Source: a virus. Taken from it: a DNA stretch of 46,010 nucleotides. This document shows positions 15,514 to 27,039 of this stretch, in pieces. Below the pieces are notes generated by a model, which saw only the letters and a list, made by a program, of their open reading frames with translations, did no database searches and had not been told where the DNA came from. The DNA lies in the IMG/VR virus record IMGVR_UViG_3300046755_000117, positions 1 through 46,010 of that record; one strand, written 5' to 3'. The translations under genes were made by a program, and so were the position numbers. Numbering within the stretch: position 1 is the first letter of the stretch; each line of letters starts with the position of its first letter.

Positions 15514-16683
15514 TCACTGTAGGTCACGAATTGAACCATGTCCTCCAAAGAAAGTTGTCCAAACTTCTCCCATTGAACGGTACATACCCTCTTGTCCTAG
15601 ACGGTTAATAGCGAATGGGTCACCGGTTTCGATACCGGATTCAAAGTATTGAGTTGGTATAGCAGTTGAGAAGTATGTGTAATCAGTATCTAAGAAATAC
15701 ATACGGGAAATACCGTCTTTTACTATATCCTTAGATGGAATGATTGGTACACCGTTGTAGGTTGCTACGATGAAACCGGCTTCGATACCCGGTACACCCT
15801 TAACACCGTTGTAGGTTGGTGTAACTCTCTTCTCTTCCATGAACCTTTGTTGGCTTTGTAGTAGTTGTTGAAGTCTCATTAGAGTATCATATCCTGTTAG
15901 GATAACCTTTGGATTACCACCACGAACCCAAATCTGTTGGAATAGGGTATCTAGGTGGTCTAAAGATAGAGTCCTTCTGTTAGCCGCATCTTGGTCGCTA
16001 CCACAGTTTACTTCTGCATTTGACCATGAGTTTGCACTTCGGTCAATACTGTAGATGTCAAGGTCACCTGCGCCACAGTGGTCTGCCGTCGCCGCACCTG
16101 TTTCCAAAGAAGTTAGTCCACCGGTTGCACCACCGTCATTTCCGGTGATTCTGTCTAGTGATTCAAAGTCATTACCTGCTACTGTGGCACAGTCTGCTGT
16201 TAGCATTTTGTTAATGTGTTCTGCGTGGTGCTTACCCATTTCTTCCTTTAGTACTGAACGAATGTCACCTAGGCCGTCATCTTTGTCAGCCAAGAACATA
16301 GCGGTTTCACTCATGTCGAATGTGTGAACAACTGTCTTTGGTTTTGCGGCTATGTGTTGGAATTGTGGTTTAGTTGTGTCCGGTAGAGTAGCGTTTTCTG
16401 CTACACCGCCACCCTTAGCAAAGGATGGTCTGTCAGTAATAACTCTCCAACCACTTCTTTCCCATGGTCTCTTAGGTAGAATTGAGAATGCGTTAAACTC
16501 TTGGTTCAACTGTGACCAAACTTTTCTACCGTAGATTGCTTGGTATGTACCTGCTGTAGAACTTAGCATTGGTGCGTCAGCCTTCAACAATTCACTACCG
16601 GAGTAGGAATAGCCCATAGCGTTACCTGCACCGTAAAAGTATCTTTCCATATCTGTTATGTTTCTTATGTAATCTCTTGCCAT
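15514..16683 (-). CDS. Major capsid protein, HK97 fold
   Basis: About 390 residues, directly downstream of the protease-scaffold gene. Features that fit an HK97-type capsid subunit are a variable N-arm (RDYIRNITDMERYFYG), strands around GWRVITDRPSFAKGGG, a long spine helix (IRSVLKEEMGKHHAEHINKM), NPKVILTGYDTLMRLQQLLQ in the axial domain, GFIVATYNGVPIIPSKDI, and a C-terminal tail with YTYFSTAIPTQYFES. I prefer the second ATG (16683) because AAGGAGATGA is then correctly spaced; the first in-frame ATG (16692) abuts that site. The insertion at about residues 175-235 (Gly, Asp and Cys-rich) is likely surface-exposed. About 25 bases separate it from the protease gene. Confidence 0.86.
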   Translation of the reverse strand: MARDYIRNITDMERYFYGAGNAMGYSYSGSELLKADAPMLSSTAGTYQAIYGRKVWSQLNQEFNAFSILPKRPWERSGWRVITDRPSFAKGGGVAENATLPDTTKPQFQHIAAKPKTVVHTFDMSETAMFLADKDDGLGDIRSVLKEEMGKHHAEHINKMLTADCATVAGNDFESLDRITGNDGGATGGLTSLETGAATADHCGAGDLDIYSIDRSANSWSNAEVNCGSDQDAANRRTLSLDHLDTLFQQIWVRGGNPKVILTGYDTLMRLQQLLQSQQRFMEEKRVTPTYNGVKGVPGIEAGFIVATYNGVPIIPSKDIVKDGISRMYFLDTDYTYFSTAIPTQYFESGIETGDPFAINRLGQEGMYRSMGEVWTTFFGGHGSIRDLQ

Positions 16684-16716
16684 ATTAGTCATCTCCTTTT
16701 TCTTAATTTATTATCC

Positions 16717-18138
16717 TCAAGCACCCCTGTAGACACTATTTGCTAGTGTGTGTACCTCATCCCAAGACATGTTGCTCAAGTCTTGAGTAGATGGGATTGT
16801 AACATTTGTTGATAGGTCAGCCTTTGCGATTGTTGTACCTTCTGTAGTTAGGTTGTCAATTCTTTCGGAAAGGTTTGAAATTGCCTTCATGACTTCACTA
16901 ATTGGTTCACGAGCATCGAATTGAGCCTTTTCTGCTTCGGACTTTGCAACTGCTTGTTCATTAGCGAATCTTGAAGCAAAGTGTCCTTCTAGGTCACCAC
17001 GGAATTGTTGTTCCATAGCCGCCGCTTTGTAGACTTCATAAGCCGCCTCAATATCGGTTGGTGAAACACTTGATGGGTGAATGTAGGATTTTGAAAGGTC
17101 AGCCGGACCCATAGCCCCTGCCGGTTGCTTTCCACCACTTTGACTTATTGCGCTAATAGCACCGGTTGATGGGCTACCTGCGGTTTGTCCTCGGCCTCTA
17201 ACTTGTCCGGCGAAGTAATCTGCACCGTCTACTGTATCCGGGTTGTCGAATCCACCAAGTTGTGCTTTTTCAAGAGCATCAAAATGCTGTCTTGCTGAAT
17301 AAGTATCTACACCTGCGGATTTAAGAGTATCTTCCATCCAGTTAAGATATTCGGCACTGATAACATCGCTGTACTCGTTTCCTTTCATGTACTTCATTTT
17401 GTCATCATCTTTTTCTTTCTTTTCTTCTTTCTTTTCATCTTCGGCCTTCATCTTATCATCCTTCTTTTCTTCTTTGTCGTCGGAATCATCTTTCTTACCC
17501 TTGATATGCTCTCGGAGTTGAGGTGGAATTTCACCTTTCTCCATAGCGTCAAGTCTTGCTTCTAGCCTGTTCATTACTGCGTTTAGGTCACTGTCTATAT
17601 CTGTCATATTATTCACATCTTCCTTTAAAATTCTAAATTGTGCTTCCGGGTTAATCCCTTTTTCACAAATTGTAATTTCATGGAGTTCCATTTTACTTAT
17701 TTCTTGGTATTCTCCGTGTTCACCATCAGCCTTTCTAACACGCTTGAAAGCCTGTCCACCAATGGAGAATCCTTGCAAATTACCTTTGCGTATTTCTGCG
17801 GCTACTTCACGAGCCTTTTCTATGTCGTTTCGTAGTTTACAAACTACAAACATTCCTGTGTCGTCTACTTCGGACTTCCACATTCTTCCGTTAGAGTCTA
17901 CATAGTTATCTATGACTTCTCCAACTTGTATATTAGAGTGAGCCAACTGTACATTTCTGTATCTGTCACTCTTCATAAAACCGTCAAATGCATCTTTTAA
18001 TGCACCACGAGTAATCAAATCTCCTTGCTTATCAACAAGTTCTACAGATGCATAACCGGCTACAACTAAATCACTACCACTCTTTAGGACTTTCAATCCC
18101 GTAGATGGTCGCTGTATAGTTAGCATCAATTTACACAA
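16717..18138 (-). CDS. Prohead maturation protease fused to scaffold domain
   Basis: The N-terminal 170 residues are an HK97/U35-type prohead protease: VVAGYASVELVDKQGDLIT, the catalytic His in LAHS (H67), the nucleophile Ser in LQGFSIGG (S125) and ELHEITICEKGINPEAQF. The remaining 300 residues are scaffold-like: a Lys/Asp/Glu-rich stretch at about 215-255, helices, a coiled coil (EVMKAISNLSERIDNLTTE) and a C-terminal tail with NMSWDEVHTLANSVYRGA. The protease should cut the scaffold and itself during capsid maturation. The first start is TTG (18138, with AGGATGA upstream); an ATG four codons in (18126) is equally likely. A promoter-like sequence lies just upstream. The tail motif recurs in the gene at 24508-24846. 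Confidence 0.85.
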   Translation of the reverse strand: MCKLMLTIQRPSTGLKVLKSGSDLVVAGYASVELVDKQGDLITRGALKDAFDGFMKSDRYRNVQLAHSNIQVGEVIDNYVDSNGRMWKSEVDDTGMFVVCKLRNDIEKAREVAAEIRKGNLQGFSIGGQAFKRVRKADGEHGEYQEISKMELHEITICEKGINPEAQFRILKEDVNNMTDIDSDLNAVMNRLEARLDAMEKGEIPPQLREHIKGKKDDSDDKEEKKDDKMKAEDEKKEEKKEKDDDKMKYMKGNEYSDVISAEYLNWMEDTLKSAGVDTYSARQHFDALEKAQLGGFDNPDTVDGADYFAGQVRGRGQTAGSPSTGAISAISQSGGKQPAGAMGPADLSKSYIHPSSVSPTDIEAAYEVYKAAAMEQQFRGDLEGHFASRFANEQAVAKSEAEKAQFDAREPISEVMKAISNLSERIDNLTTEGTTIAKADLSTNVTIPSTQDLSNMSWDEVHTLANSVYRGA

Positions 18139-18188: not shown

Positions 18189-21100
18189 TCAGTCTACTTT
18201 GTTAAAATCGGACAACTGCGAAGTATTATCGTTTACCTCTATATGTTTTATTGGTTTTTTCTCTTTTTTGTTTTTCTTAGGCTCAATTTCTTTTTCATCA
18301 CTTCGCTTTCTACCATCATAGTCCGGCATGGTTTCTTCATTAGCCAAACGAGTTGGACCACTTGGAGATTCTATTGGTGTAGCCATATCTATACCCAAAC
18401 CTTTTGGTCCTGTCCATGTCATTTTTTCTTTAGCGAGTGTATCTAAAACACGAGTAATTATCTCTAAGGCTTTCTTAGTAGTTGGTTTTAGTAACCGGTT
18501 ATCATCATCTGCATCTAATATACCTGCTGATTGTTTATCTTGCCGTTTACGGCTTGGAGGCTTTTCATCTAGTACATCTCTTTTAACTAAATGACCATCA
18601 AACATAAGCGGTGCAACGGCACTCCAATATGGATACATACTTTCTGCTAATGTAACAGGATAGTTTGATTTTACCATACCACTCAATGCTGTAGATGGGT
18701 TTTCTAAATACCATAAGTTACCATAACTTACAACATCATATTCTACAGTATCTATATCTTTTAATATAACTTTTAATTTATTATTATCATATTCTATATC
18801 ATGCGGAACTAAAATAGGAGTTAAAGATTTAGTAAGTATATCCAAAGATTCAGCACTAGCCGCACCTTCACCATCACCTTTACCAGTTATTTGTTTCATT
18901 TGAACATTGAAAACATCTCTTCCACCACGAGTTTTCTTTGTAACTCCTGTAATAGATACTCTAACCACATCTCCTACTTTGTATGAATCTGTTTGATTAT
19001 GTATAGTTCCTATATCCATATAGTCTTGTCCATTTACTTCTACTGCTCTATTACCTAGTTTTGAGCCATCTAATATTGGCCCTGCACCTAGTCTATATGT
19101 ATGTGAATTTTTACCTTTTACATCTAATACTATGAAATTATAATCTTTAGTGTTTCTAAGTAGCATCCATTTAGGATGTCGCCTTTCTCCTTTCATGTAT
19201 GTAGATTTACCATCTCTTAGTAAAAGCACCTCATGTTCTTTTTGCAGATTAGATACCGTTTCATCTAAACCTTCTTCATCTGTCATTTTAGTATCATGTG
19301 GACCGGGAATAATTATATTTTCATGACTGTCAAATTGACTTCTTAATAATTTCATTCTTTCAAACATAGTCATATCGCTTACATTGTTAGCGTCATAATT
19401 TAGAATATCTATTATGTTTAATTCATCTTCACCCAAAATACCGTCTATAACATAATCTCTTTTATTTAACTTTGAAAGATTTTCTTTGAATACTTTTTTC
19501 AATCCTACTTTTTTACCATCTTCATCGTATGTAGTAATAGTTTCATCTTCGTTTACAATAATTACTCTCTTACCATCATACCATTTACTAACTACCCACG
19601 AACCACTAAACCCTCTTAGATGGTGTAAATCGCTTATTTCAAAAATACGATGCATTGGTCTAATAGGAGGTGACCATTTTACATCATCGTTTTTCATTAG
19701 TAATATATCGGGATTAAGTAATGATGTGATATATGTAGAAACTTCACTCATAGCAATCGTTGAAGGGTCATCCGATGGAGATAAGTATGTATCCATATTT
19801 ACTCCTTGATGTGCTGAAAGGGTAGTTTGAGGTGGTGGTAAATTTGGTAGTACCTGTTGTACGGTTTCTTCTCCAAACAATGTGTTCAACGCTTCTTCAC
19901 TTACTCTTGGATAAAAGCCCGGTTGAGCATATTCTCCAACTATTGGTTCACCTTCTATGTTAGTTTCAATACCAAACGAAGGTTCTGCTACAAACCCTTC
20001 ATGAATATCTCCTACACCGAATATATTGTAGATAGATGCATTAGTGGGGTTCACTCTACCTATCTTAGAATGAGTACCTAAACCGGCTCTAGCAACTGTT
20101 TCAGTTGTAGGTGCTTCAAATGCGCTTTCTAATATACCACCTTTTTCATCCATTAACTTTCTTTCATCTAACACAATTAAAGAATCTAAATTATTTCTAG
20201 TAGTAGCGGTGACTTTCTTAACCCCTTTACCCATATCTTTTGCACCATGAGCATCAAAGTCTCTAGCGTGGAAAAATTCTAATCCGCTATTTTGCATTGA
20301 TTGTCCAAAGTGTTTTGTGTTAAGAATATGGTTTAATGATTGAGATAATCCGTGTATAGGATTTGCTTTCCAATTCTCATTTTCTTTTCTTGCTCTCTTT
20401 TGTGCAATACTTATTGCGTTATGAATATTTGAATTATGTAAATCATGATGAAACTTATCATTACTGTTTAAATCATCATATTCAGCACCCATAATATCAT
20501 CATTAGGAGTATGTAAATGAGATATATCTGCATTTCCTATTTTTGATAATGTGCCACTTGTAAGTATATTACCCACTGTTGAAACAAATAATGGTTGTTG
20601 TCTCAAAGAAGATTCATTAATAATATTAGCAACATGTTCTTTCATAGCGGGAGTTTTTTCTAAGTTTAACATATTAATTACTTCATCAACTGACATGTTA
20701 CCATCTATTTCTGCACCATTTTCTAGTAAATGATTAGCAATAGCACCATGTTCATTAATTTCTTTTGGTTTTTGACTGACCACATTGTAATCTATTCCGT
20801 AAGTTACAGGAGATAAATCGTGATTGTCAGTTGCTAAAATGTGTCTTTGTGTGTCAGCCAATATTTTTTGTACATTATGTATAAACTGTACAGGGTTGTT
20901 AGGGTCAAAAGCATCGGGTTGTTGTTCAAGAACTAACGGCATTACGACATTTTTAGCATAATCAACAACTGTATCATGATGAGACCGTAGCATATCTAAA
21001 TACTGTTTAGCATTAATTTTCCAATGCGATGTCGGTTTATCTTTCTGTTTTGTAGATAATTGAACTTGATTTAATTGAGTCACAGCATCTTGTAAATCTT

Positions 21101-23759
21101 CTCTCAAACCCATCACTTGCTCTTGTGACAAATCGGGATTCATCATCATTTCATTTATTGAATCAATAGTTTCTCTAATTCTATTCTCTTTTTCAGTAGA
21201 AACAATGTCACCACCAAATCTTAGGATAGACTGAATAGCATCAGTAGATGTTGTTTTAGGTTGGTATTTCTTTTTTGGACCGTCTAATTTTCTTTGATGA
21301 AGTTTAGATGTTATACTTTGTAACTTAGACTTAGCCTCATCTAAATTAACTTTATCATTAACAGCAAAATCGTGGTTATCCATATAATAGTCATGTAGAA
21401 TTTTATAATTTTCATCGTTTTTATCAACAGACAAATTTTCTATAAAATTGTTAATTTTTTTACTATCTGTTGTATTGAGTATTTTACTAACTGAATTTAC
21501 TAATCTAACTATTGGGTAATCACCTGTTTCTATGGTATCTTTGACATTACTATAAGTAGTGGGTTTAGAATCCCATCCCACATAATCTTTGAATTCTTGA
21601 AGGCCGAGACCTGCTGATAATGTTAAGTCACCTGTTAAAAAATCTTTAAGTTGCGCTATGGCTTTTTTCGGTGGAGTAAATGGATGACCGATTCTATTCA
21701 AAAATGTATTATGTAATTGTGCTTTAACGGCTCTTTCGTGTAATCTACTATCACTAGGATGTGTACCATACATAGATGTAGATTTAGGCATAATAGTAGG
21801 ATTAGTTGAAGTGTGTGGCTCTAAATGTTGATTATGTGTACCTAATTGTTGTTTAAAAGCAGGATTTGCTGTTCTTATTGCATATTCGTACATCGGGTTT
21901 ATTGCTGATTTATGCTCGGTATAGTTATTTTTTTCAGTTCGATTAGAAGATTTAGCCGTACCAAAAGGAGAAAATATATTTTGCAAAGGCATTTTTTCGG
22001 GAGTATAATCAAATTTATACTTAGTAGTATCAAAAGCCCCTAGAGGTGGTGCAAACAGTGGACCGAAATGCATTCCTAAAATAGTGTTATCTTGATTTGG
22101 CATCCAAAATTGATAATTATTTTGGTCTGTTTGAAACATGATAGAGTTATCTTTGTCATGTGACATAGAGTGTAAAAATTCAATCCATGTAGAAGGTGAT
22201 ACATTCATACCCGGTATATTAGCATATAAAGAAGAATAAAATTTACCCGGACCGTATGTATATCCATCGGGGTGATTTTCCCAAAATTCTTGTTTTTCTT
22301 CATCGGGATGAGGACCATGTGGTGATTTTAAAAACGCTAAATCATTCACCATTTCTTTTGCTAACTGTTGAACTGTTCCGTTGCGGCGTGCATGGTCTTG
22401 CGTTTTTTCTAATGTTGGTAAATCAATTATCGGCCCATCCATTTTACCATGTATAGGGTGATTCTCAATTAACTGTTTTGTATTAGGGTCAAATCCCGCT
22501 AAGAAAAGTAAATCTTCCATAGAGAGTCTTTTGTGTTTAGATGCTCTTTGTAAATCTTGATAATTATATTTATCTTTAGGTTTTGTTTTATGAATTTCAA
22601 GTGATGGTAGCACTTGTAAAGGTTCTTTATCATCAACAGCATATTTTTCATTAATCTCACTCAATATATAATCAGCGATAGGATAGTCTAACATATCGTT
22701 TTGATTATGGACATATTCTCCTAAAGCACTTCTAATGAATCTGTTTTCACCTTGAGAATAATCTTCTTCATTAGATTGATTTCGATAATGAGCATTACGG
22801 CCAAAATTTTGATTTGACCTAAGCATAAAGTTCATTTCGGGTGTTCTTCTAAGTAAATTATTTACTGCTATTCTAGCAGTAGGTATTTTCTCACCATTGG
22901 GTAATGTAAGTGTTGATTTTTTATCTACACCTTCATGCAACTGTTCTTCAATAGAATCTCTTTCTTCGGGTGTAAACCATTCAAGACCGTACATAAAACC
23001 GTCTAAACCTAATTCTCCTTCTTTACTTGTCCACTCTTTTACTTTATCGTCAAAGTGACTATGACGCAGTTCACCTTCCAATTCCCTGCCTTTCAAACCT
23101 CTACTTTGGAGTTCTGTTTCTAAATCTGCATTTTGCTTTTTCCATTTTCTATAATCTCTTTCGTACAGATGATGTTGATGCTGTGCTACAGTTCCCGGTG
23201 CATTAATATCTCCAAGAATTGGTATAGTTTTAGAACCCACTTTTATGCCGGTAACTAAAGGACTATTTTTTTCTGTCATAGTCTTATACCACTTTTTCTC
23301 CATCTCCATTTCTTGTGTACTTGCACCACCTAACGCAAATGACCTAAGTACTTCAAACATATTTGGTAAACCTGTTGCGTGGTTTATCTGCCTTAATGGA
23401 TGGTTCATTTCATGATAAGGAAAGTGAGTATCTGTGTAAGATGACTTTACATCTGCTCTATAACTAGGAAATATAGAGTGACCTCTACCTTCTCTACGAA
23501 TTAAACCGTTAGCCCAAACATGATTTGTTGGCTCACCAAAAGTAGGCATACTAGCCAATAGATAACCTACTCCTTCCTTTTTATCGAATTTAATTATTGT
23601 TTCAGCAGTATCTTTAAGATTTAAAGAAAATAAATCGCTAGGGGATTTTTCTAAAGATTCCCATGCCATAATGTATTCTGCGGCACTTCGAGATAAATCT
23701 AAACCATCGTAAAGAGATATTACAAACTCATTTTTACGAATGTTAAAATCATCTATCAT
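18189..23759 (-). CDS. Giant 1,856-residue head-cluster protein with a degenerate ATP-dependent DNA-ligase-like module
   Basis: Residues 1-1340 have no domain I recognise: hydrophilic, rich in Asn, His, Asp and Pro, with coiled-coil stretches (about 830-930) and repeated His-containing helices. From about residue 1365 a nucleotidyltransferase-like fold appears: FSGSWVVSKWYDGKRVIIV resembles ligase motif I, YVIDGILGEDELNIIDIL motif III, MFERMKLLR motif IIIa, and EVLLLRDGKSTYMKGERR with KWMLLRNTKDYNFIVLD motifs IV-V. An OB-fold-like part follows (VGDVVRVSITGVTKKTRGG). Motif I reads KWYDG (K1392) instead of KxDG, the motif III Glu is Ile (I1441) and motif V lysines are replaced, so normal ligase chemistry is doubtful. 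The C-terminal 60 residues are Lys-rich. Position between portal and protease suggests a virion-internal or ejected protein. GGCGGTGAAATA precedes the ATG. Confidence 0.7.
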   Translation of the reverse strand: MIDDFNIRKNEFVISLYDGLDLSRSAAEYIMAWESLEKSPSDLFSLNLKDTAETIIKFDKKEGVGYLLASMPTFGEPTNHVWANGLIRREGRGHSIFPSYRADVKSSYTDTHFPYHEMNHPLRQINHATGLPNMFEVLRSFALGGASTQEMEMEKKWYKTMTEKNSPLVTGIKVGSKTIPILGDINAPGTVAQHQHHLYERDYRKWKKQNADLETELQSRGLKGRELEGELRHSHFDDKVKEWTSKEGELGLDGFMYGLEWFTPEERDSIEEQLHEGVDKKSTLTLPNGEKIPTARIAVNNLLRRTPEMNFMLRSNQNFGRNAHYRNQSNEEDYSQGENRFIRSALGEYVHNQNDMLDYPIADYILSEINEKYAVDDKEPLQVLPSLEIHKTKPKDKYNYQDLQRASKHKRLSMEDLLFLAGFDPNTKQLIENHPIHGKMDGPIIDLPTLEKTQDHARRNGTVQQLAKEMVNDLAFLKSPHGPHPDEEKQEFWENHPDGYTYGPGKFYSSLYANIPGMNVSPSTWIEFLHSMSHDKDNSIMFQTDQNNYQFWMPNQDNTILGMHFGPLFAPPLGAFDTTKYKFDYTPEKMPLQNIFSPFGTAKSSNRTEKNNYTEHKSAINPMYEYAIRTANPAFKQQLGTHNQHLEPHTSTNPTIMPKSTSMYGTHPSDSRLHERAVKAQLHNTFLNRIGHPFTPPKKAIAQLKDFLTGDLTLSAGLGLQEFKDYVGWDSKPTTYSNVKDTIETGDYPIVRLVNSVSKILNTTDSKKINNFIENLSVDKNDENYKILHDYYMDNHDFAVNDKVNLDEAKSKLQSITSKLHQRKLDGPKKKYQPKTTSTDAIQSILRFGGDIVSTEKENRIRETIDSINEMMMNPDLSQEQVMGLREDLQDAVTQLNQVQLSTKQKDKPTSHWKINAKQYLDMLRSHHDTVVDYAKNVVMPLVLEQQPDAFDPNNPVQFIHNVQKILADTQRHILATDNHDLSPVTYGIDYNVVSQKPKEINEHGAIANHLLENGAEIDGNMSVDEVINMLNLEKTPAMKEHVANIINESSLRQQPLFVSTVGNILTSGTLSKIGNADISHLHTPNDDIMGAEYDDLNSNDKFHHDLHNSNIHNAISIAQKRARKENENWKANPIHGLSQSLNHILNTKHFGQSMQNSGLEFFHARDFDAHGAKDMGKGVKKVTATTRNNLDSLIVLDERKLMDEKGGILESAFEAPTTETVARAGLGTHSKIGRVNPTNASIYNIFGVGDIHEGFVAEPSFGIETNIEGEPIVGEYAQPGFYPRVSEEALNTLFGEETVQQVLPNLPPPQTTLSAHQGVNMDTYLSPSDDPSTIAMSEVSTYITSLLNPDILLMKNDDVKWSPPIRPMHRIFEISDLHHLRGFSGSWVVSKWYDGKRVIIVNEDETITTYDEDGKKVGLKKVFKENLSKLNKRDYVIDGILGEDELNIIDILNYDANNVSDMTMFERMKLLRSQFDSHENIIIPGPHDTKMTDEEGLDETVSNLQKEHEVLLLRDGKSTYMKGERRHPKWMLLRNTKDYNFIVLDVKGKNSHTYRLGAGPILDGSKLGNRAVEVNGQDYMDIGTIHNQTDSYKVGDVVRVSITGVTKKTRGGRDVFNVQMKQITGKGDGEGAASAESLDILTKSLTPILVPHDIEYDNNKLKVILKDIDTVEYDVVSYGNLWYLENPSTALSGMVKSNYPVTLAESMYPYWSAVAPLMFDGHLVKRDVLDEKPPSRKRQDKQSAGILDADDDNRLLKPTTKKALEIITRVLDTLAKEKMTWTGPKGLGIDMATPIESPSGPTRLANEETMPDYDGRKRSDEKEIEPKKNKKEKKPIKHIEVNDNTSQLSDFNKVD

Positions 23760-23950: not shown

Positions 23951-24511
23951 TCAATCAAACTTTTCTTCTCTAACGACTCCTGTGTCGGAGTGCGGGTTTT
24001 GTCTTGATGATAGTCTTTCCATGTTCACCTTAGAATCTGCTTTCTTTCTCTTTGGTTTAGCATCTTCGGCTTCAATAGTTTTACCATTAGTAGTAAAATA
24101 ACCACTCTTAGTCTGTCCACCGGATTCTGCTACGAAGTGAGGATTGATGTCAGTGATTTTTTCGGGTGCGTATCCCGGTTGCGCTTTAGCCATTTTATTC
24201 CCACCCATGCAATTCGCTTTACACATATCTGCTTTGAATTTACCATCTTTACAATGAGGGCATTCTTCTGCTTTTTGAGCCATTCCTGTGTCGTCACCTG
24301 TACCCGGAAGAGGCATCTCACCGACTTCACGCATACCCTCACGAGGTTTTCTCATGCTTTCCATTTTACCTCTTTTTGATGTTCGAGGTGTACCTGCTGA
24401 CAATGGTAGAGTCATTTCTTTCTCTATTCTATTTAGCCTGTCATTCATCGCTTTTGCTTTTTCAAGCATAACTGTAGTTTCATAACTCATCTCTTCAAAT
24501 CTTGGCTTCAT
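23951..24511 (-). CDS. Basic, disordered protein with a Cys cluster (186 aa)
   Basis: The N-terminal 35 residues are helical (YETTVMLEKAKAMNDRLNRI). A Gly, Pro and Met-rich linker follows, then a Cys cluster CPHCKDGKFKADMCKANCMG (about residues 84-103) that should bind zinc. The C-terminus is Lys-rich (AKPKRKKADSKVNMERL). The ATG overlaps the stop of the preceding gene by four bases. It belongs to the run of small genes between portal and protease, where minor head proteins and scaffold helpers are usual. The function is unknown to me. Confidence 0.48.
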   Translation of the reverse strand: MKPRFEEMSYETTVMLEKAKAMNDRLNRIEKEMTLPLSAGTPRTSKRGKMESMRKPREGMREVGEMPLPGTGDDTGMAQKAEECPHCKDGKFKADMCKANCMGGNKMAKAQPGYAPEKITDINPHFVAESGGQTKSGYFTTNGKTIEAEDAKPKRKKADSKVNMERLSSRQNPHSDTGVVREEKFD

Positions 24512-24846
24512 TGTATCACATCTGTCTTTTTTGCTTGGTTTGCTAATTCGTGAATTTCATCCCAATCCATATTGTGGAATTCTTCATTGGTTTGCGGGAT
24601 AGTGGTATTTTGACCTTTTAGAATTGAATTATTATTTAGGTCGTTTCTAAAAGGGTCATCTTGTACATCTTCGGTAAATGGAGTAGTAGTTTTTACCATA
24701 CCCATTTTTCTCAACAATCTTTGAGGGTTGTTAATTATACTTTTAAGACGCTCATTTTCTTGTTTTAAAATCTCTATGTTAGAATCCATAACTTCCATTT
24801 TAGTGATTAAAGCGTTCACTAAAAGTTCGGATTTATCTTCTGTCAT
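24508..24846 (-). CDS. Coiled-coil protein sharing the protease-scaffold C-terminal motif (112 aa)
   Basis: An N-terminal coiled coil (ALITKMEVMDSNIEILKQEN, continuing ERLKSIIN) is followed by a disordered linker. The tail motif IPQTNEEFHNMDWDEIHELA closely matches the C-terminus of the prohead protease-scaffold (IPSTQDLSNMSWDEVHTLA). In scaffolds the C-terminal helix commonly binds the capsid protein, so both proteins may dock on the same capsid or portal surface. Size and coiled coil would suit an accessory scaffold. The homology of the tails is seen in the sequence; the docking role is inference. Confidence 0.55.
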   Translation of the reverse strand: MTEDKSELLVNALITKMEVMDSNIEILKQENERLKSIINNPQRLLRKMGMVKTTTPFTEDVQDDPFRNDLNNNSILKGQNTTIPQTNEEFHNMDWDEIHELANQAKKTDVIQ

Positions 24847-24855
24847 AGTATGACC

Positions 24856-25227
24856 TCAATTTGAATAGCGGCCAAATGTACCTGTACTGCGGCTAAAGTT
24901 AGATTTTCTAATTCCTGTACTAATAGAGCCGGGAAGTCTTTGCCCTTGAATAGAACCTGTCCTTCCTTTTCCTTCGGTGAACTTTATTACAGGAACTCCA
25001 CCTGCATAAATATCATTTACACCTTTAGCGGATTCGGACTTAGCAATAACAGTATTTAGGTCATCTGCAAGGAAATCTGCTAACTTTTGTACTTCTGTCA
25101 AATGCTGTTTTGCAACTTCTGCATTATCTCCTTCAAGGGCTGTTAAAAATCCTTTTTGGGCTTGTTCGAGTTTTCTTGCCATTGGGTGCATTTTGATTAA
25201 ATCCATCTTCATCCCTGCCTGTCTCAC
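24856..25227 (-). CDS. Small helical head-associated protein downstream of portal (123 aa)
   Basis: The N-terminal 75 residues form amphipathic helices (MARKLEQAQKGFLTALEGDN; VAKQHLTEVQKLADFLADDL). The C-terminal 45 residues are Gly, Ser and Arg-rich and disordered (GKGRTGSIQGQRLPGSISTG). The frame opens with GTG at 25227, but ATG codons five and seven codons later (25212, 25206) are equally plausible. It follows the portal gene by about 25 bases. It may be a portal-associated or internal head protein; no family is recognised. Confidence 0.42.
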   Translation of the reverse strand: MRQAGMKMDLIKMHPMARKLEQAQKGFLTALEGDNAEVAKQHLTEVQKLADFLADDLNTVIAKSESAKGVNDIYAGGVPVIKFTEGKGRTGSIQGQRLPGSISTGIRKSNFSRSTGTFGRYSN

Positions 25228-25251: not shown

Positions 25252-27039
25252 TTATGCACCTCTAAATCTTCTAGCATTTTGCATGGTGTTTACATTCTGC
25301 TGTCCAAGTGATGGTGGTGGTCCTCTTTGTTGTACACTTGTTACAGGCGCACCACTACCCGGTGAGGTTCTTCTTTCGGGTGCGGCAGGACCACGATTGC
25401 GTATTCCTACACCTTGACCGCCCGGTTGTGGAGGTGGCATTGGCATGTTACCCATCGGCATACCCGGAGGCATACCTCTCATCGGCATACCCGGAGGCAT
25501 ACCACCCATCGGCATACCCGGTGGCATACCCGGTGGCATACCCGGTGGCATTCTTCCTCCACCCGGTGGCATCATTGGCGGTGCGCCGCCCGGAGGTGGT
25601 GCGCCTTGTTGTTGTTCTTCGGGTTTAGGTTTACGATAAACAAATTTAATATCATTACTAGTATCACCATTAACTAATTCCGGTACAAATCCTAATTGAG
25701 CCATTCTTTGTGCTACATTCAACTCTTGCTCATCTCGGCGTAGTCTTGTAATTTCATCTTCTTCTTCATTTGGATAAAGAGTTAATTTCCAATCAAATAC
25801 TCCCATTTGCTTTAGAATCTTAGGGAATAAAACATCAGTATAGATTTTTTGTCCAAACTCTACTGCTCGATTAGTAACAAGAATCTGTAGACCTTCATTG
25901 TTAAGACCACCGGACTTACCATTGTCTACCATAAAAATACTTGATACACCAAAATATGCGGCTATTCTATTTCTTATTTCATCACGAACAGCAATATATT
26001 GCATTTCTTCAAGCGTATCCATAAACTTGACCCAATTTACACCACCTCTACCTGTGCTAGATTCTATACCAACTTTAGGTACATAATGTGGGTCTCTTTC
26101 CATTTTTTCATCTACCGACTTCCAAAACGATTTCATTGACTCAAGATTATCAGTAGTAACAGAAATAATACCTTTTGGCATTCTACGCTTTTGGTATGCA
26201 GTATACATGTAGTTATCCATCGCTGTTAGAGTCATGGCTTGCCGCCACATTGTATTTACCGGTGAACGACCATATAATTTAGATGGATTATATTTACTTA
26301 AATGTAAAACTTCACCTTCAACAAAATATTGTGTTTTACCACTACCTGCCATGTTTACATAGTGTACATCGTGTAAATCGCTACCACAAACTTCGCACTT
26401 ATCATCTTCTGCGTGTGTTTTTACTTGGTCACGATGAATTAAGCAGGTTTTGTAACGACCACCTCTAACCCCTCTTTTATCTGCAACTATTCGCATAAAG
26501 ATTGGGTCACCTCTAATCATTTCTTTTACACGATAGAATGCGACTTCTTTTGTTTCCGGGTCAATATAATACTCTTTTACAAATATTAAGAATGCATCAT
26601 CTACAATATTTAAATCGTTTTCTAACTCATGTAAAATATGTAAAAATTGTTGTTCCATACTGTTTTCTTGTTTAAGTAACCATTTAGCATAAACCAGTTC
26701 TTCTGTTTCCGGTCCTCTAACTTCACCACCGCATGTTTCACAAGTTTCTACATCATGACTGAACTCTTCATCACATTGAGTACATTTCTTATGAAATCGC
26801 TTTTCCCAATAATATCCTCTTCTAAACATCTCTTGTCTAAGTTTAGAAAGAACTGTTCTAAGAATTAAACATTCTGTACTCACAGCATATAGAGCAGGTA
26901 TTGTAATTCCTTGTGCCATTACAGGCTCTTGAATACCACTTGTCCAAAGTGGCATAGTTGGAGTCGGTGATGACTTACGCTTGAAGGGTTTACTCAAAGT
27001 CGAGAGAAACCGACTAATTCTACTTTCATCATCTGCCAT
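25252..27039 (-). CDS. Portal protein with two zinc-binding inserts and a Pro-Gly-Met repeat tail
   Basis: The portal forms the dodecameric DNA channel at the capsid vertex. Portal-like features are the N-terminal crown and wing (ALYAVSTECLILRTVLSKLR), GEVLHLSKYNPSKLYGRSPV (the loop seen before the stem in many portals), EMQYIAVRDEIRNRIAAYFG, VSSIFMVDNGKSGGLNNEGL and EFGQKIYTDVLFPKILKQMG. Unusual are two Cys clusters: C86, C89, C100, C103 and C199, H202, C215, C218, which should each bind zinc in the wing. The C-terminal 100 residues are low complexity (MPPGMPPGMPPGMPMGGMPP), probably disordered inside the capsid. The gene lies four genes after the terminase, and its ATG shares its first base with the stop of the LAGLIDADG gene. 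Confidence 0.82.
   Translation of the reverse strand: MADDESRISRFLSTLSKPFKRKSSPTPTMPLWTSGIQEPVMAQGITIPALYAVSTECLILRTVLSKLRQEMFRRGYYWEKRFHKKCTQCDEEFSHDVETCETCGGEVRGPETEELVYAKWLLKQENSMEQQFLHILHELENDLNIVDDAFLIFVKEYYIDPETKEVAFYRVKEMIRGDPIFMRIVADKRGVRGGRYKTCLIHRDQVKTHAEDDKCEVCGSDLHDVHYVNMAGSGKTQYFVEGEVLHLSKYNPSKLYGRSPVNTMWRQAMTLTAMDNYMYTAYQKRRMPKGIISVTTDNLESMKSFWKSVDEKMERDPHYVPKVGIESSTGRGGVNWVKFMDTLEEMQYIAVRDEIRNRIAAYFGVSSIFMVDNGKSGGLNNEGLQILVTNRAVEFGQKIYTDVLFPKILKQMGVFDWKLTLYPNEEEDEITRLRRDEQELNVAQRMAQLGFVPELVNGDTSNDIKFVYRKPKPEEQQQGAPPPGGAPPMMPPGGGRMPPGMPPGMPPGMPMGGMPPGMPMRGMPPGMPMGNMPMPPPQPGGQGVGIRNRGPAAPERRTSPGSGAPVTSVQQRGPPPSLGQQNVNTMQNARRFRGA
25450..25553 (-). repeat. Short tandem repeats encoding Pro-Gly-Met units in the portal tail
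   Basis: Repeated 12- to 27-base units built on GGCATACCCGG(A/T) as read on the plus strand encode PPGM and MGGMPPGMP. They are in frame with the portal gene and probably arose by slippage. They are coding repeats rather than a CRISPR array: units abut and there are no spacers. Confidence 0.85.

Follow-up and report, generated by a model that had tools for sequence, protein, structure and literature searches.

Organization of the locus

The stretch of DNA analyzed here (the window) is a 46-kb virus fragment of 46,010 nucleotides, IMG/VR record IMGVR_UViG_3300046755_000117. Its genes were found in the order terminase large subunit, portal, three small proteins, a giant open reading frame (ORF), S78 prohead protease and HK97-type capsid, and the coordinates of these genes and of the segments of the giant protein are given in Table 1. 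The giant gene had been predicted to lie between the portal and protease genes, and this location was confirmed, with the three small genes intervening after the portal and the protease adjoining directly. A Pfam search of the three small products (186, 112 and 123 aa) gave nothing above the cut-off. Two further proteins are encoded in the interval between terminase and portal (window 27039-28349/28356-29390), one of 436 aa that matches phrog_5046 (HNH-type, E 9e-8), the other a basic protein of 344 aa with DUF5872.

The arrangement is shared by the relatives. In all capsid-anchored contigs having enough upstream sequence, the C-terminal domain of the giant protein was present in an ORF of about 1700-2150 aa immediately before the protease. 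The giant gene thus stands between the portal and the capsid genes, which is also the position of the MuF / SPP1 gp7 minor head proteins.

Table 1. Positions of the genes and protein segments considered in this study (window coordinates unless a contig is named).
Feature	Coordinates	Strand	Evidence or remark
Portal protein	25252..27039	(-)	PF04860 E 1.2e-10; phrog_18178 E 7e-67
Three small genes between portal and giant gene	23951..25227	(-)	ORF list
Giant head-cluster protein with pseudoligase	18189..23759	(-)	Single ORF, 1856 aa; full-length IMG/VR relatives with same gene order
Residues 1-1340, N-terminal region	19740..23759	(-)	Mainly helical; AlphaFold of 1-1190
Residues 1360-1540, ligase nucleotidyltransferase (NTase) fold	19140..19682	(-)	PF01068, phmmer, AlphaFold, Foldseek, VIA-align
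Degenerate motif I, SKWYDGKR (1391-1398), nucleophile column W1393	19566..19589	(-)	Lys 0/173
Degenerate motif III, VIDGIL (1437-1442), Glu column I1441	19434..19451	(-)	Glu 0/173
Motif IIIa, NIIDIL (1448-1453), D1451 kept	19401..19418	(-)	Asp 173/173
Degenerate motif IV, EVLLLR (1510-1515), Lys to Arg	19215..19232	(-)	R 168/173, K 4/173
Degenerate motif V, KWMLLR (1530-1535), KxK to LxR	19155..19172	(-)	First Lys column K 0/173
Residues 1541-1640, OB fold	18840..19139	(-)	AlphaFold, VIA-align; lost from one clade
Residues 1641-1856, small beta domain, helices and tail GLGID..TPIESPSGPT...LPDYD	18192..18839	(-)	AlphaFold and family conservation
Prohead protease (S78), directly downstream of giant gene	16717..18138	(-)	PF04586 E 1.4e-10; PHROG head maturation protease
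HK97-type major capsid protein	15514..16692	(-)	phrog_24667 E 1e-55; 32-33% identity to Druskaviridae MCP
Ligase-like protein of about 400-525 aa (relatives)	L332-L339; L340:8597-9937, L341:6135-7394, L342:11851-13092, L344:6092-7309, L345:10672-11922	(+), (-), (+), (-), (+) for L340, L341, L342, L344 and L345	

Ligase fold of the C-terminal part

The sequence matches of the C-terminal part to ATP-dependent DNA ligases are weak and consistent. PF01068 was matched at residues 1447-1531 with E 1e-3, a match that together with its in-frame neighbours exceeds the curated cut-off, and the same family was matched by 40 of the 43 aligned relatives. A phmmer search with the giant protein retrieved archaeal DNA ligases (4eq5, E 8.5e-5). 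From these 43 relatives, AlphaFold modelled residues 1335-1856 with the NTase and OB folds, pLDDT being mostly 75-90 over the ligase-like part. Foldseek again matched this model to 4eq5, the ligase of Thermococcus sibiricus (E 2.2e-13), and VIA-align superposed it on the Pyrococcus furiosus ligase 2cfm with Z 21.4 and rmsd 3.6 over 282 aligned residues, spanning both NTase and OB folds (model positions 6-310, i.e. protein residues 1340-1644). Since the weak but consistent sequence matches agree with these structural scores, the resemblance is, as judged from sequence and model together, homology and not chance. The original prediction had read the whole C-terminal 490 residues as ligase-like; the fold stood and the extent did not, as only residues of about 1360-1640 belong to it and residues 1641-1856 form a separate conserved tail. 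The motif ESPSGPT in this tail also occurs at the C-terminus of the HVTV-1 protease, and this single short match was treated as chance.

Catalytic columns

The catalytic columns were counted in 173 distinct relatives. Because some of the searches for relatives started from family motifs, two others were started from the capsid protein to counter ascertainment bias; no Lys stood at the nucleophile column in the 66 domains examined from the first of these or in the motif I strings read from the other. An altered nucleophile pattern (KxxDG in place of KxDG), Ile for the Glu of motif III and Leu/Arg for the lysines of motif V had all been predicted from the single sequence, and each of these changes was recovered. 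When the protein is aligned by HMM, without gaps, to the ligase motif IKYDGAR, the nucleophile Lys falls on W1393 and not on K1392. Across the relatives this column is occupied by W (86), Y (24), M (24), H (15), L (10), Q (7), F (4) and I (3), and KxDG was found in the motif I region of none of the 173.

The Glu column of motif III, whose register rests on the predicted strand YVIDGIL of the AlphaFold model along with the sequence, holds I, V, T, M or A in all 173. In motif IV (HEVLLLR, 1509-1515) the Lys is replaced by R1515. The first Lys of motif V is L1533 in the window protein and L, M, V or I in every relative, while the second is R1535, its column being Arg in 109 of 173 and Lys in 13. 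No intact catalytic set was found elsewhere in the domain in the 173 relatives. Other columns are kept, namely Arg1398 (170/173) and Asp1451, Tyr1521, Gly1524 and Lys-Trp 1530-1531 (each 173/173).

The giant protein therefore has in common with the archaeal and eukaryotic ATP-dependent DNA ligases (PF01068; 2cfm, 4eq5) the NTase and OB folds and their order, the motif IIIa Asp, the motif I Arg and the STY..G..KW loop, whereas it lacks the Lys nucleophile as well as the Glu of motif III and the KxK of motif V. It differs from them further in that the OB fold is missing in one clade, the domain is fused to an unrelated region of 1,340 residues and the gene is placed among head genes.

These alignments and the model indicate that the C-terminal domain is a pseudoenzyme derived from an ATP-dependent DNA ligase. 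A dead or re-purposed ligase fused to about 1,340 residues of unfamiliar sequence was what had been proposed, and the fold, the 173 relatives and the synteny support it. What has been called the "DNA ligase" of these viruses is, to judge from its residues, almost certainly not a working ligase. The retained Arg1398, Arg1515 and Arg1535 could bind phosphate or nucleotide, so that some activity other than ligation is possible. That the domain is an active enzyme of changed chemistry, working through K1392 or another residue, is very improbable: K1392 adjoins the nucleophile column and the Arg of motifs I, IV and V are kept with Asp1451, but K1392 was rejected as the nucleophile, being one column off and Lys in only 91 of 173 relatives, and none of them has the Glu of motif III or the first Lys of motif V.

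Conservation, loss of the OB fold and charge

The NTase is the best conserved and most strongly purified part of the giant protein. Identity across the group falls to about 20% in the N-terminal part and is mostly 40-55% in residues 1361-1540, and dN/dS is 0.04-0.08 for the NTase as against 0.09-0.23 for residues 1-1340. The segment RDxKSTYMxGExxHPKW is likewise kept under strong purifying selection. A dead domain that is so conserved and so purified has a function.

The OB fold is missing in 43 of the 173 relatives, which retain the NTase and form one monophyletic clade (support 0.996). Members of this clade, among them L126, L138, L184, L192 and L220, keep both NTase and tail in the giant protein. 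The mean net charge in the family is -5.3 for the NTase, which is thus acidic, and +2.4 for the OB fold where it is present, which is mildly basic; the canonical ligase of a related virus has a net charge of +15. The OB fold of ligases usually wraps DNA. The acidic NTase and the dispensable OB fold, as calculated from sequence, argue against simple gripping of DNA.

N-terminal region

Residues 1-1190 were modelled by AlphaFold as one piece on 56 relatives (pLDDT 82, pTM 0.67) and are mainly helical. Foldseek with this model gave no match with E<=0.001 in the PDB or in BFVD (predicted viral structures), and the top VIA-align score (Z 8.9) spans only a 60-residue helical hairpin. No MuF domain was matched in the giant protein by Pfam or PHROG, nor by a clear PDB fold for residues 1-1190, where divergence may hide one. 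A pattern-seeded search confirmed no close homologues in cellular genomes.

The viruses and their published ligase

The capsid and portal proteins have their closest counterparts, 28-33% identical, in Druskaviridae, which are tailed viruses of Haloarcula. The relation of the window to known groups was examined on its long relatives, where family B polymerase (PolB) was found in 12 of 13 and chaperonin in 15 of 15; the combination of PolB and chaperonin has been described for viruses of Marine Group II archaea (PMC5332604). The long relatives show the traits of group A magroviruses (Magrovirales), namely PolB, chaperonin, a length of about 95-116 kb, Druskaviridae-related head genes and a "ligase" beside the prohead protease. 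MCM was looked for as a marker and was absent from 19 long contigs, in which respect these viruses are unlike Aoguangviridae. By their gene content they are like the group A magroviruses, which are common and abundant archaeal viruses of the ocean, and Poseidoniales are given as the magrovirus host in the literature (PMC12999244, PMC5332604). The PolB matches in the contigs of L108/L109 lie in two separate open frames of 349 and 471 aa (G014:73771-74918, G015:29184-30328), which suggests a split, frameshifted or intervening-sequence-bearing gene.

An ATP-dependent DNA ligase is listed among the replication genes of magroviruses, to which a nearly complete replisome is ascribed (PMC12999244, PMC10160649). 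A published group A read spans partial genes for an "ATP-dependent DNA ligase" and a prohead protease (PMC7318539). As this pair of neighbours is the same as here, the annotated group A ligase is, by synteny, very probably this giant ORF. What the literature treats as a replication enzyme is here without its catalytic residues.

A PF01068 search of 31 contigs of 71-116 kb, some of them perhaps incomplete and some near-identical so that the counts are not independent, found a canonical ligase in G022 only; the one case shows that the search is able to see such a gene. This small ATP-dependent ligase is a 379-aa ORF with KFDGVR, DGELY and EGAMVR (L254:2642-3778, on G022, the contig of L192), and was apparently acquired separately. 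Its profile alignment with the pseudoligase was too weak to be of use. Tests for NAD ligase in 13 contigs and for the PF09414 RNA ligase in 21 found neither.

A second ligase-like protein

The replication region of relatives encodes another protein of about 400-525 aa, usually beside an RFC-like clamp loader and without KxDG. Its comparison with the pseudoligase by hhalign gave E 1.6e-6 and probability 90, and with a larger and more divergent set E 7.7e-5 and probability 62; a search of the PDB with it gave no match. It may be a second, more degenerate pseudoligase, which from these profiles is a lead only.

Function of the giant protein

We consider it rather probable that these group A magrovirus-like archaeal tailed viruses have in the giant protein a virus-specific minor head (procapsid) protein, whose pseudoligase is a binding module and not an enzyme. 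It would be made late with the head proteins and would assemble with the portal and procapsid, roughly in the role of the MuF/SPP1 gp7-type minor proteins; we infer its presence in the virion only from gene order, all the sequences being metagenomic contigs. The pseudoligase would most likely bind another virion protein, or possibly the packaged DNA through the OB fold where that is present. Because the NTase is acidic and the OB fold dispensable, protein binding seems at least as likely as DNA binding, which is plausible from ancestry. The pseudoligase is probably a repurposed part of head assembly.

Two known systems are comparable in part. SPP1 gp7 is an internal head protein bound to the portal, encoded just after the portal gene and supporting the start of infection (PMC6316719), and proteins of this type can have C-terminal extensions (PMC6316719, PMC5576092). 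Like the giant protein, SPP1 gp7 and the MuF proteins are encoded after the portal and before the capsid genes, but the giant protein is much larger, has no MuF domain detected and carries a C-terminal domain that is constant and not swapped. The RNA ligase of T4, gp63 (RNA ligase 1), is a member of the nucleotidyltransferase superfamily with a role in virion assembly apart from ligation, in the attachment of tail fibres (PMC3004832); it differs from the giant protein in being small and catalytically active, and it serves the tail fibres without being part of the particle.

The strongest competitor, which we regard as unlikely, is a virion-borne DNA-binding or pilot protein that would be ejected with the genome and whose pseudoligase would hold DNA, such as the end of the genome at the portal. 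The original prediction had likewise suggested a part carried in the virion that binds DNA or nucleotide and may be ejected. The NTase and OB folds of ligases normally wrap DNA, the gene stands in the head cluster, the OB fold is mildly basic where present and phages are known to package large polyvalent effector proteins (PMC5512222), but the NTase is acidic, whereas the canonical ligase of a related virus has a net charge of +15, and 43 of 173 relatives have lost the OB fold.

Still less probable is a non-structural late protein, acting outside the particle, whose pseudoligase would draw in or hold back DNA enzymes of host or virus (host ligase, clamp or terminase) during late replication and packaging. 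Homology to DNA ligases would agree with this, as would the second ligase-like protein beside the clamp loader, by which ligase-derived binding proteins may be a theme. The gene is, however, located between portal and protease in every examined contig with enough sequence, where tailed viruses keep head genes, and a head component is the better match for its size and constant position.

Druskaviridae, the nearest characterized viruses, also have large proteins at the portal-protease place (HVTV-1 gp113-gp115 and HCTV-1 gp106-gp109), but no sequence homology between them and the giant protein was detected, and one is annotated as zeta toxin and none is ligase-like. The zeta-toxin-annotated giant proteins are located at L025:13623-17564 and L028:12929-16561. 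These would favour a MuF-like protein with a polymorphic-toxin or injected-effector tip, a reading to which we give hardly any credence: conservation is highest in the C-terminal domain, none of the sampled relatives has it swapped, it is catalytically dead, and no MuF domain was found.

Significance

1. In the group examined here the annotated ligase gene is a head-cluster pseudoenzyme, and the viruses therefore probably depend on the host ligase, so that one gene moves from the replication list to the structural list.

2. The domain represents a rare case in which the fold of a DNA-repair enzyme has wholly lost its catalytic set and has been exapted as a conserved part of an apparent viral head protein.

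3. With the purified domain, the function of a giant orphan protein that has 1,340 residues of no known fold becomes open to testing.

Taken as a whole, the data may mean that a lineage of ocean archaeal viruses has made a DNA ligase into a non-catalytic part of the head, joined to a protein of more than 1,300 residues without known fold, and retains by its clamp loader another, still more degenerate ligase-like protein; to this full account we give slightly less than an even chance. Contrary to the published annotation, most such viruses would thus have no ligase themselves.
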